Shown: positions 25,093-27,579 of the stretch, one piece after another
Numbering within the stretch: position 1 is the stretch's first letter
Layout: every line of letters begins with the position of its first letter
Source: Kribbella sp. VKM Ac-2568
GTDB lineage: Bacteria > Actinomycetota > Actinomycetes > Propionibacteriales > Kribbellaceae
Direction of reading: 5' to 3'
Assembly (NCBI RefSeq): GCF_004345365.1
Contig: NZ_SLVF01000005.1
Location: forward strand, 310,001-374,000
DNA: 64,000 nt
Translations under genes and position numbers: made by a program
Notes under the pieces: model-generated
Told to the model about the DNA's origin: nothing
The model's input: the letters and a program-made list of their open reading frames with translations, nothing else
Database searches by the model: none

Positions 25093-26328
25093 CTAGACCA
25101 GGACGTGGGCGGTCAGGGGGACTGACGTGTCCGCGAGCCGATCCGGGTCGACCTGTTGCCTGCCACGGATCAATTCCTGGACCGGCGCGATGCCGTCATC
25201 CCACAGGTTGACCTGCATCCCCGCCATCACCCGGTCATCTGCCAACCAGAACGCGTGGAACGCCTTGCCCTCGACATCCCCGCGGACGACCAGCCGGTCG
25301 TAGCCGTCCGGTCCGATCCACCCGGTGAACTCCATCCCGACGTCGTACTGGTCGGTGAAGAAGTAGGGAAGCCGGTCGTAGGCGACCTGCTGACCGAGCA
25401 TCGCCCTCGCGGCGACGGGTCCGCCGTTCAGCGCGTTGTCCCAGTGTTCGGTCCGCAGATGCCCGCTGTAGAAGGGATGGTACGAATTCGCCACGTCGCC
25501 GACCGCGTAGATGTCGGGGTCGTCGGTGCACAGCAACTCGTTGACGACAATTCCGTTGTGACAGGACAGGCCGGCCTGTTCGGCAAGCTCGATGTTCGGG
25601 CTCGCGCCGATCCCCACGATGACCGCGTCGGCCGCGAACTCGCTGCCGTCCTCGGTCAGCACGCCGGTCACCCGCTCGGTCCCCTGGAACGCCGTCACGT
25701 TGTGACTCAGCCGCAGATCGACACCGTTGCGCCGATGGAGCCCGGCGAAGAACGCGCCCATCTCAGTCCCGAGCGCAGCGAGCAGAGGTACCGGCTGCGG
25801 ATCGAGGACGGTCACGTCACAGCCGTACTCCCGAGCCGCCGCCGCGGTCTCCAGGCCGATCCACCCGGCACCCACGACGACGATCGGGCCGCCGGCCCGA
25901 ATCGCCTCGCGCAGCCGGTCCGAGTCCCCGACCCGGCGCAGGTAGTGGATGCCGTCGAGTTCCGCGCCCGGCAGCCGCAGCCGGCGTGGTGACGACCCTG
26001 TCGCCAGCAGCAGCTTCGCATAGCCGATGCGTTCGCCGGTGTCGAGTTCCACCTCGTGAGCAGCGCGGTCCAGCCTCGTCGCGCGTCTGCCGAGCAGCAG
26101 TTCCACCTGGTGTTCGTCGTACCAGGACTCTTCGTGGACGTAGATCTTCGCTCTTTCGTCCTTGCCCAGCAGGTAGCCCTTGGACAACGCGGGGCGCTCG
26201 TACGGGCGCTCACTCTCGTCGCCGATCAGGACGATCCGCCCCGCGAAGCCTTGCTCCCGCAAAGCCTGGGCCGCCTTCGCGCCCGCCAGACTCGCGCCCA
26301 CGATGACGTAGGTGGATTCCTTGTTCAT
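25093..26328 (-). CDS. NAD(P)/FAD-dependent ferredoxin/rubredoxin reductase-type oxidoreductase
   Basis: 411 residues from the ATG at 26328 (GGAAAGG 5 bases upstream; a GTG two codons earlier is less likely). The FAD site is YVIVGASLAGAKAAQALREQG and the NADH site is IVVVGAGWIGLETAAAAREYG. The second FAD contact is DDPDIYAVGDVANSY, and the C-terminal reductase domain contains MAGMQVNLWDD. The class passes electrons from NADH to ferredoxin for cytochrome P450s or dioxygenases. It is likely co-transcribed with the doxX-like gene upstream and controlled through the palindrome at 26816. Confidence 0.93.
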   Translation of the reverse strand: MNKESTYVIVGASLAGAKAAQALREQGFAGRIVLIGDESERPYERPALSKGYLLGKDERAKIYVHEESWYDEHQVELLLGRRATRLDRAAHEVELDTGERIGYAKLLLATGSSPRRLRLPGAELDGIHYLRRVGDSDRLREAIRAGGPIVVVGAGWIGLETAAAAREYGCDVTVLDPQPVPLLAALGTEMGAFFAGLHRRNGVDLRLSHNVTAFQGTERVTGVLTEDGSEFAADAVIVGIGASPNIELAEQAGLSCHNGIVVNELLCTDDPDIYAVGDVANSYHPFYSGHLRTEHWDNALNGGPVAARAMLGQQVAYDRLPYFFTDQYDVGMEFTGWIGPDGYDRLVVRGDVEGKAFHAFWLADDRVMAGMQVNLWDDGIAPVQELIRGRQQVDPDRLADTSVPLTAHVLV

Positions 26329-26373
26329 GATCACCTTTCCAGTACGGAAATCTCAGGGGCCCGTGCCTGCTGC

Positions 26374-26805
26374 TCAGGAGCTGTGCCGGGCCGGTGCGTA
26401 CTTGGCGGCGAGCCGGGACAGCGCCAAGGCGCCGACCAGGAGACCGAAGTCGCGCAGCGCGACGTCGTAGAAGTCCGGGATCGTCAGGAGGTTGACGATG
26501 ATGCCCGCGAGCCAGGCGGCGACGATCAGCGCGCCGTACCGCGGGATCAGGGCGACGGCCACGCCGGCGACGATCTCGACGACGCCGATCACGTACATCG
26601 CGTCCTGGCCGGACCCCGGAACGATGTCGTTGATCCACGGCGCCAGGTACTGCGGCCAGTCGGTCAACAGGTTCGCGAACTTGTCCAGCCCGAACAGGAC
26701 CGGCGCCACGGTGAACACGGTGCGCAACAACAGGAACGCCTGGTAGCCAGGATCCGACAGCGCTTCGCGGTCGACTAACCGGGTGGTCGGCTGGTGGGTG
26801 GTCAT
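26374..26805 (-). CDS. DoxX-family membrane protein
   Basis: 143 residues, four membrane helices (LLRTVFTVAPVLFGLDKF, MYVIGVVEIVAGVAVALI, GALIVAAWLAGIIVNLL, FGLLVGALALSRLAA). DoxX relatives in mycobacteria form a redox-stress complex with superoxide dismutase. Here the gene is first in an operon with a flavin reductase, 45 bases apart. The ATG has GAAGGAG upstream and begins 11 bases after the palindromic operator. Confidence 0.9.
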   Translation of the reverse strand: MTTHQPTTRLVDREALSDPGYQAFLLLRTVFTVAPVLFGLDKFANLLTDWPQYLAPWINDIVPGSGQDAMYVIGVVEIVAGVAVALIPRYGALIVAAWLAGIIVNLLTIPDFYDVALRDFGLLVGALALSRLAAKYAPARHSS

Positions 26806-26815
26806 GAGCTTCTCC

Positions 26816-26845
26816 TTCTAAAGTAGATGTGTTTTGACTTTAGAA
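26816..26845. promoter_or_regulatory. Palindromic operator between doxX operon and HTH regulator
   Basis: Perfect inverted repeat TTCTAAAG (26816-26823) / CTTTAGAA (26838-26845) with a 14-base spacer containing TTTTGACTT. A further half-site (GGCTTTAGAG, 26874-26883) lies just before the regulator's GTG. TTGACT at 26834 is a good -35 for the regulator. The low-GC islet in high-GC DNA marks it as regulatory. Binding by the divergent regulator is inference. Confidence 0.75.
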
Positions 26846-26883
26846 GCGGTCCAGGCTTTTCGTCAATGGGAGTTGGCTTTAGA

Positions 26884-27579
26884 GTGGAACTCGTGGACGA
26901 CTCCCGGGAGGCTCGGATCCTGGCCGTCGCCGCGTTGGAGGAGCCGACGCGGCGCCGGCTGTACGACCACGTCGTACGGCGGGTGGATCCGGTGACCCGG
27001 GACGAGGCCGCCACCGCCTTGGGTCTGCCCCGCACCACCGCGGCGTTCCATCTCGACAAACTGGCCGACGAGGGTCTGCTCGAGGTCGTCTACGAACGAC
27101 GCAACGGCCGATCCGGCCCCGGTGCAGGACGGCCGTCGAAGCTGTACCGTCGCGCCGCCCAGCACGTCGCCGTGTCGCTACCGGAGCACCGCTACGACCT
27201 GGCCGGAGGCCTGCTGGCGACAGCCATCGAAGACGCGGTAGCCACCGGTGAATCCCCGCGAGCGGCTCTCGACCGCCGCGCCCGCCAACTCGGTAACGAA
27301 CTCGCCCAGGCCGCCCGGGAAGAGGCAGACGGCCCCGACGTGATGCGCGTCCTCGAGGAACAAGGCTTCGAGCCGCGCACCGACGAGAACGCGATCGTCC
27401 TCGGCAACTGCCCCTTCCACGCGCTGGCCCAGGACCACACCGACCTGGTCTGCGAGATGAACCTCTGCCTCCTCGACGGCCTGCTGACAGGCCTGGGCAC
27501 TACCCACCTACAGGCTCACCTCAAGCCGACACCCGACACCTGCTGCGTCCGCCTAGAGCCAACGCCGGCGCCTGGCTGA
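26884..27579 (+). CDS. Winged-helix (COG2345-type) regulator with conserved C-terminal cysteines
   Basis: About 231 residues (GTG at 26884; GTG at 26893 is an alternative). The winged helix reads LEEPTRRRLYDHVVRR, DEAATALGLPRTTAAFHLDKLADEGLLE and GRPSKLYRR. The C-terminal domain has GNCPFHALAQDHTDLVCEMNLCLLDG and DTCCVRL. Cysteines spaced like this in SufR-like regulators bind an Fe-S cluster or metal. It is divergent from the doxX/reductase operon across a perfect palindrome, so it probably represses that operon and itself in response to redox state (inference). Confidence 0.87.
   Translation: MELVDDSREARILAVAALEEPTRRRLYDHVVRRVDPVTRDEAATALGLPRTTAAFHLDKLADEGLLEVVYERRNGRSGPGAGRPSKLYRRAAQHVAVSLPEHRYDLAGGLLATAIEDAVATGESPRAALDRRARQLGNELAQAAREEADGPDVMRVLEEQGFEPRTDENAIVLGNCPFHALAQDHTDLVCEMNLCLLDGLLTGLGTTHLQAHLKPTPDTCCVRLEPTPAPG

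Follow-up and report, generated by a model that had tools for sequence, protein, structure and literature searches.

A conserved pair of dyads beside a four-cysteine regulator distantly related to SufR at doxX and folE loci of Kribbella and other Actinobacteria

The window analyzed here, a stretch of 64,000 nucleotides (nt) from Kribbella sp. VKM Ac-2568, contains at positions 25093-27579 a divergent locus in which genes for a reductase and a DoxX membrane protein lie on the minus strand and a gene for a cysteine-rich winged-helix regulator lies on the plus strand. An initial annotation of the DNA had proposed that this is a redox operon controlled by the regulator through a perfect palindrome in the shared promoter, which raises the question of whether the palindrome is a control element and, if so, to which protein it belongs. 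Comparative sequence analysis suggests that the palindrome is a genuine control element and a widespread one, because the regulator adjoins a conserved pair of 30-bp dyads, O1 and O2 (Table 1), and, in many actinobacteria, redox or pterin genes. The proposal of an operon under the regulator has therefore been kept as regards the tie between palindrome and regulator, but the palindrome is not the sole dyad, and folE, encoding GTP cyclohydrolase I, is also found in or in place of the operon in relatives.

The palindrome is present as described, in the form TTCTAAAG-N14-CTTTAGAA at 26816-26845, and the genome search that had been called for identified it as the sole such site in its own genome (8,875,416 bases), where even the relaxed pattern TTCTAAAG-N10-18-CTTTAGAA occurs a single time; a search for TTCTAAAGT-N12-ACTTTAGAA with up to three mismatches gave no further place in that genome besides O1. 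Within the window, TTCTAAAG is found twice, against 0.08 occurrences expected from shuffles. O1 is one version of a wider dyad, TTCTA-N20-TAGAA, which lies upstream of homologous regulators across Actinobacteria. Its exact form occurs once in the Kribbella genome, and one mismatch added 14 places, fewer than the 25 given by the reversed control. A chance palindrome was ruled out by the shuffles, the uniqueness in the whole genome and the upstream-versus-background counts.

Regulator homologues were detected (E ≤ 0.001) in 51 of 58 relatives and at 80 named loci, the best 80 of 523 encoding a relative. These loci are mutually related and a few represent the same species twice (e.g., L019 and L067), and 67 of the 72 O1 sites analyzed are distinct. 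Of 112 loci, 63 have exact TTCTA-N20-TAGAA in the ~230 nt preceding the match and 9 more have it with one mismatch, compared with 0 exact and 4 one-mismatch occurrences among 4000 background windows of 250 nt. The 30-bp frame returns with different arms in different groups: TTCTATCG/CGATAGAA in many Streptomyces, TTCTAACG/CGTTAGAA in Lentzea and others, and TTCTAAAG/CTTTAGAA in Kribbella. O1 is also kept when the target changes, being found at all 47 loci in which the nearest divergent gene is doxX and at 16 of the 20 in which it is folE. Arm position 6 pairs in 52 of the 67 distinct O1 sites, versus 31.6 in column shuffles, and positions 7-9 likewise pair above shuffles; positions 10-15 do not.

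A bare-DNA pattern that joins promoter and palindrome, TTGAC-N14-20-TTCTA-N20-TAGAA, was then searched in 394 genomes of the class and gave 17 sites in 17 genomes, the site in the window included. The conserved dyad was tied to the regulator gene throughout, as would be expected of an operator for a local repressor: a homologue (44-100% identical) adjoins each of the 17 sites, which lie upstream of it in 16 cases and just downstream in one (L165), and 16 of the 17 also have DoxX and/or FolE encoded in the fetched flanks (≤1.5 kb). The 17 genomes all fall among the 82 of 394 that have a homologue at E ≤ 1e-40 (chance 6e-13 if independent), and the 312 genomes without a homologue at that threshold have no site. 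The reversed control matched in five genomes (G120, G196, G204, G234 and G304), none of which is among the 82. At the next-best 29 homologue loci, O1 with at most one mismatch was found upstream in 19; 18 of the 29 are in genomes without a class-wide site, and 9 of the 18 have O1 at the same tolerance, the other 11 loci being in genomes already matched. DoxX, FolE or reductase was encoded in the fetched stretch at 26 of the 29. L165 (814-1551) is the exception in that the promoter and an O1-type dyad follow the regulator gene, at a distance of ~60 nt.

These results bear on the idea that the dyads belong to another, global regulator and that the neighboring regulator gene is merely one more of its targets. 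Three unlinked sites, described below, would fit such an arrangement, but there is usually one site per genome, at the regulator, and neither the placement of every class-wide site nor the empty 312 genomes would be expected from it, so we regard a global regulator as exceedingly improbable.

Sites away from the regulator were sought in smaller sets of genomes. A search of 8 genomes matched in all 8, with extra, weaker matches in two, one of them an unlinked doxX site, and its reversed control (up to three mismatches) matched in 2 of 8; a search of 16 genomes matched in 10, each time at the regulator locus by coordinates or sequence, and its reversed control (two mismatches) matched in 1 of 16. 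Genome G008 has a second doxX gene, and the dyad search of that genome gave a site only at the regulator. Twenty-six genomes, 11 of which had also been in the 8- or 16-genome searches with other patterns, were chosen for a different gene order or for having shown no linked doxX, and these yielded 14 sites in 13 genomes, 11 at a regulator with FolE and 3 unlinked. The first unlinked site is in a Saccharothrix metagenome-assembled genome (MAG) in which the regulator faces folE and a doxX gene located on a separate contig has O1 together with a second 30-mer and TTGACG-N18-TAAAGT. The two 30-bp dyads at this doxX stand in tandem (L163:2280-2370), and an O1/O2-like pair thus exists without an adjacent regulator gene in the fetched 5 kb. 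The remaining two are O1 sites that precede a universal stress protein gene, one in each of two MAGs (L189 and L190), the gene being assigned by Pfam Usp in the first and by a near-identical start in the second. In the same two MAGs, the regulator stands without DoxX, FolE or reductase nearby (L054 and L069), and at L054 (6668-8113) a GTP cyclohydrolase II-RibD_C fusion is encoded after it.

How could the two dyads act on the two divergent promoters? O2 is the weaker 30-mer, set in the same frame as O1 and 39 bp further on, and in most loci that have both it sits 38-41 bp beyond O1. Its scores are descriptive, because the weight matrix was trained on the same loci; the matrix picked O1 itself in L045, L047, L071 and L097 and scored below 1 in L003, L010, L012, L054, L069 and L085. 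An operator consisting of GTCAAC-N4-GTTGNC alone, derived from the Kribbella B group, was discarded when the wider set showed this to be the core of the O2 30-mer. Codirectional loci of Geodermatophilus and Blastococcus (L089, L091, L099, L109 and L111), in which the regulator gene is followed by doxX, folE or reductase, have only an O2-type dyad that we could find before the regulator.

The predicted doxX promoter is the only sigma70-like match in 26700-27000 (shuffles: mean, 0.0; standard deviation, 0.1). The right arm of O1 contains its -10 element, and the left arm adjoins the doxX Shine-Dalgarno sequence, AGAAGGAG on the minus strand (by eye). O2 contains the doxX -35 element and overlaps the putative -10 element of the regulator. 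The extra half-site that the initial annotation had placed before the regulator's start (CTTTAGAG, 26877-26884) does exist and is kept in close relatives, but it is not a standalone element: it is the right arm of O2 and, at the same time, overlaps the putative regulator -10. Among the 104 homologous loci scored, the -10-like hexamer in O2 fits TANNNT in 93, and in 83 an in-frame ATG or GTG follows its end at a distance of 6 or 7 nt; the regulator gene is therefore probably leaderless; its start is probably the GTG at 26893 (228 amino acids [aa]) rather than 26827 (250 aa).

This geometry also bears on the possibility that the palindrome acts not as a DNA operator but within the doxX leader RNA, as a hairpin that masks the ribosome site. 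The doxX-strand stretch does fold as a 10-bp RNA hairpin (-10.1 kcal/mol; z, -2.59), and the mismatched arm cells comprise 99 A.C on the plus strand (wobble on the doxX strand), 27 G.T and 89 other. However, in the sole promoter match the -10 falls within the upstream arm, so that the 5' arm of the hairpin would be untranscribed; moreover, position 7 pairs in only 39 of the 67 distinct sites, and O2, lying over a gene that is probably leaderless, repeats a dyad of this 30-bp frame. We consider a hairpin very improbable.

Table 1. Positions of the genes, dyads, promoter elements and cysteine codons at the locus
Feature	Position	Strand	Remarks
FAD/NAD(P)H reductase, ferredoxin-reductase type, 411 aa	25093..26328	-	Pfam Pyr_redox_2, 234 bits; Reductase_C, 58.5 bits
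doxX, 143-aa membrane protein	26374..26805	-	Pfam DoxX, 21.8 bits, slightly below the cut-off of 23.6
Dyad O1, TTCTAAAGTAGATGTGTTTTGACTTTAGAA	26816..26845		Between doxX and regulator; contains perfect TTCTAAAG-N14-CTTTAGAA
Predicted doxX promoter: TTGACG (26861-26866), N18, TAAAGT (26837-26842)	26837..26866	-	Sigma70-like consensus match
Dyad O2, degenerate 30-mer GCTTTTCGTCAATGGGAGTTGGCTTTAGAG	26855..26884		Weight matrix trained on these same loci
Putative regulator -10, TAGAGT	26880..26885	+	7 nt ahead of GTG 26893; overlaps O2 and the extra half-site
Regulator, winged-helix, 228 aa, GTG start	26893..27579	+	N-terminal Pfam HTH_20 and four-Cys C-terminal domain; model pLDDT (predicted local distance difference test), 89.5
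C173 codon (NCPF)	27409..27411	+	Cys in 127/127 homologues
C187 codon (VCEM)	27451..27453	+	Cys in 127/127 homologues; aligned with a SufR Cys
C217 and C218 codons (CC)	27541..27546	+	Cys in 127/127 homologues; C217 aligned with a SufR Cys

Which genes travel with the regulator? Homology searches indicate that the conserved partners are DoxX, FolE and a ferredoxin-reductase-type flavoprotein: one or more of the three (DoxX in 51, FolE in 41 and reductase in 25) are encoded within 4.5 kb, with ≥45% identity, at 75 of the 80 named loci, the FolE query having been taken from L067, itself one of the 80. The five loci with none of the three are L054, L069, L085, L090 and L095, and a transaldolase is present in four of the 80. 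Pfam assigned the FolE cluster to GTP cyclohydrolase I (two members), and DoxX relatives encoded beside homologous regulators are 57-87% identical to the window protein. The reductase, which has an alternative GTG start at 26334, had been annotated as a flavin reductase; its domains instead place it with the ferredoxin/rubredoxin reductases, of the oxygenase/ferredoxin-reductase type, and its top NCBIfam models, AndAa and HcaD, score under their cut-offs.

Two Kribbella relatives have the run doxX-folE-reductase (L145 and L146; folE of L145 is in two frames). The window locus lacks folE, which instead faces a second, 62%-identical regulator on contig 15 of the same genome (L151), where only an O2-type dyad is kept. 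Beyond this folE are genes for Hen1/Pnkp-like RNA-repair proteins, and a YbaK-like gene follows the regulator (both by eye). At L143 (6355-7280), the reductase match is spread over more than a single frame, pointing to a disrupted gene or an error in sequencing. A third SufR-like gene, ~28-33% identical to the window regulator, lies beside the cluster in Kribbella relatives L144, L146, L147, L149 and L150, and the copy of our genome is on contig 22 (45229-45855). Four of these relatives also have a DUF2249 gene with a weak hemerythrin match beside the cluster, and a MarR regulator and a DUF488 protein are encoded near the third SufR-like gene in some.

The regulator itself belongs to the HTH_20 family (PF12840) by its N-terminal domain, with 41.1 bits against a Pfam gathering cut-off of 27. 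The cysteines to which the initial annotation had drawn attention, in NCPF, VCEM and DTCC, are present as quoted, and all four are invariant among 127 homologues that had been found through patterns outside the cysteine motif or by whole-protein or motif-DNA searches. The spacing is X13 and then X29 in 107 of the 127 and X26-X30 in the rest. Their suggested likeness to SufR held in part: profile comparison with the genome's own SufR (L133) aligned the two proteins over both domains (hhalign probability, 95.6; E, 1.2e-8; 195 columns; 27% identity) with three cysteine positions matched, and by this measure the regulator is a distant homologue of SufR, though distinct from it. L133 is on another contig, directly before sufB (by eye from the sequence), and is the best match of this genome to the SufR model TIGR02702 at 78.4 bits, itself under the cyanobacterial cut-off of 178.8.

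Like SufR of Mycobacterium, Streptomyces, Corynebacterium and cyanobacteria, the regulator combines an N-terminal winged helix with a C-terminal cysteine domain. It differs in having C-X13-C-X26-30-CC, whereas the presumed iron-sulfur (Fe-S) ligands of Corynebacterium glutamicum SufR are C-X3-C-X12-C-X27-C (PMC11995493). The function of Mycobacterium tuberculosis SufR needs C203, C216 and C244 but not C242, and Synechocystis SufR has two sites, one of high affinity on its target and one of low affinity on itself (PMC6034842), an arrangement that the two dyads resemble. The regulator further differs in its neighbors, doxX and reductase rather than suf genes, a separate sufR being retained before sufB.

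An AlphaFold2 monomer model of the regulator was confident throughout, and the C-terminal domain alone reached a pLDDT of 91.1. The DNA-binding half of the model resembles ArsR/SmtB-type sensors of metals and thiols (Z, 12.5 over 82 residues with the best chain, 6j05), but the protein scores 24.8 with the NCBIfam model NF033788, against a cut-off of 55, and has an extra C-terminal domain of ~130 residues. For this domain (residues 96-228), the top VIA-align rows were nearly all MopR, PoxR, DmpR and TRAPP (Z, 8-9.2 over 114-128 residues); MopR aligned over 122 of 133 residues (Z, 9.2; root-mean-square deviation, 3.8), Bet3/TPC6 also aligned, and H-NOX scored lower. Foldseek with the predicted domain found none at E ≤ 0.001 (best E, 0.011), a PDB sequence search with the domain found no significant match, and Pfam V4R (PF02830) matched 1 of 59 members, at E 0.12, and not the window protein. 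We take the predicted resemblance to the V4R/Bet3/H-NOX superfold as a lead on the fold, not on function. The V4R sensors MopR, PoxR and DmpR, to which the regulator has no significant sequence match, have DNA-binding and activation modules different from those of the regulator.

Could the C-terminal domain nevertheless be a V4R-type pocket that senses a small molecule such as a phenol, a quinone or a pterin, with the cysteines merely structural? Its predicted alignment with the phenol sensors and the fact that FolE is a pterin enzyme would fit, but the Pfam and Foldseek results just given do not, middling Z scores are common, and there is no known ligand; we think a pocket of this kind improbable. 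Another reading keeps the same regulator and dyads and makes the four cysteines a structural zinc site or a thiol-disulfide switch, with an oxidant or an electrophile as the signal. The invariant CC pair and the absence of the first SufR cysteine from 126 of the 127 homologues would suit it, and so would the zinc sites known in V4R sensors, whose fold the predicted domain resembles. In Bacillus subtilis, YodB, a cysteine-containing winged-helix repressor that answers to oxidants and electrophiles, controls catD, the DoxX-family gene of catDE, and would serve as the model, although its protein architecture and operator are different and neither FolE nor a reductase is known to be involved. Against this, the SufR alignment places three of the cysteines on Fe-S ligand positions, and we judge a zinc or thiol switch rather unlikely.

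The account toward which we lean, with some but by no means full confidence, is that of a dedicated local repressor that would leave both promoters open once its cysteine-bound cofactor is damaged; DNA binding, repression rather than activation, the cofactor and the signal are all proposals here. The N-terminal winged helices, presumably in a dimer, would bind both 30-bp dyads of the divergent promoter region. Occupancy of O1 would cover the doxX -10 and start region, and occupancy of O2 would cover the doxX -35 and the regulator's own -10, so that the regulator would also repress itself. In the C-terminal domain, C173, C187 and C217/C218 would carry the cofactor, an Fe-S cluster being the likeliest, with zinc or a thiol possible. 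Damage to the cofactor or its loss, through an oxidant, nitric oxide or iron shortage, as for SufR, would release the protein from the DNA and so allow synthesis of DoxX and the ferredoxin-reductase-type flavoprotein, as well as of FolE in relatives. The SufR-like and DUF2249 neighbors and the universal stress protein genes under O1 give a hint, and no more, that the signal is nitric oxide or oxygen stress.

Several observations weigh against this account of a local, SufR-like repressor. The exact promoter-palindrome pattern is missing from 65 of the 82 homologue genomes, many homologues being 41-50% identical, and O1 is absent, with only an O2-type dyad left, from the Kribbella B group and the codirectional loci. 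The unlinked sites are in MAGs, in which a binning error is possible, though the motif and the doxX promoter spacing match. On the tree, 8 symmetric same-branch arm changes (positions 6-8) were counted, versus 7 over fifteen slid comparisons. Because the tree shows so few, strict covariation of the arms was rejected, and what the aligned sites indicate is that the two arms share base preferences rather than changing strictly together. As to the kinship with SufR, the regulator is not among the 11 places in its own genome that match TIGR02702 at E ≤ 0.01, and the SufR motif C-X3-C-X12-C-X27-C is not conserved, its first cysteine, four residues upstream, being present in 1 of the 127 homologues.

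A literature search, with most subscription journals outside its coverage, found no description of the regulator, the dyad or a DoxX-FolE regulon. DoxX proteins are common and poorly understood, and we know of no obvious reason for a link to GTP cyclohydrolase I. It is possible, though we hold it doubtful, that the regulators form a separate, undescribed class of four-cysteine sensors with a V4R/H-NOX-like fold that ties pterin supply by FolE to a membrane redox module of DoxX and reductase, as a stress regulon of Actinobacteria that includes the universal stress protein in some lineages; such a class could sense nitric oxide, oxygen damage or even a pterin. The four-cysteine domain, as a variant of the SufR sensor, offers a comparison with Fe-S and zinc sites, and the 30-bp motif is a specific probe for further targets. 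Taken together, the conserved dyad, the conserved regulator and the few genes that recur beside them suggest a defined regulon in Streptomyces, Amycolatopsis, Rhodococcus, Kribbella and others.

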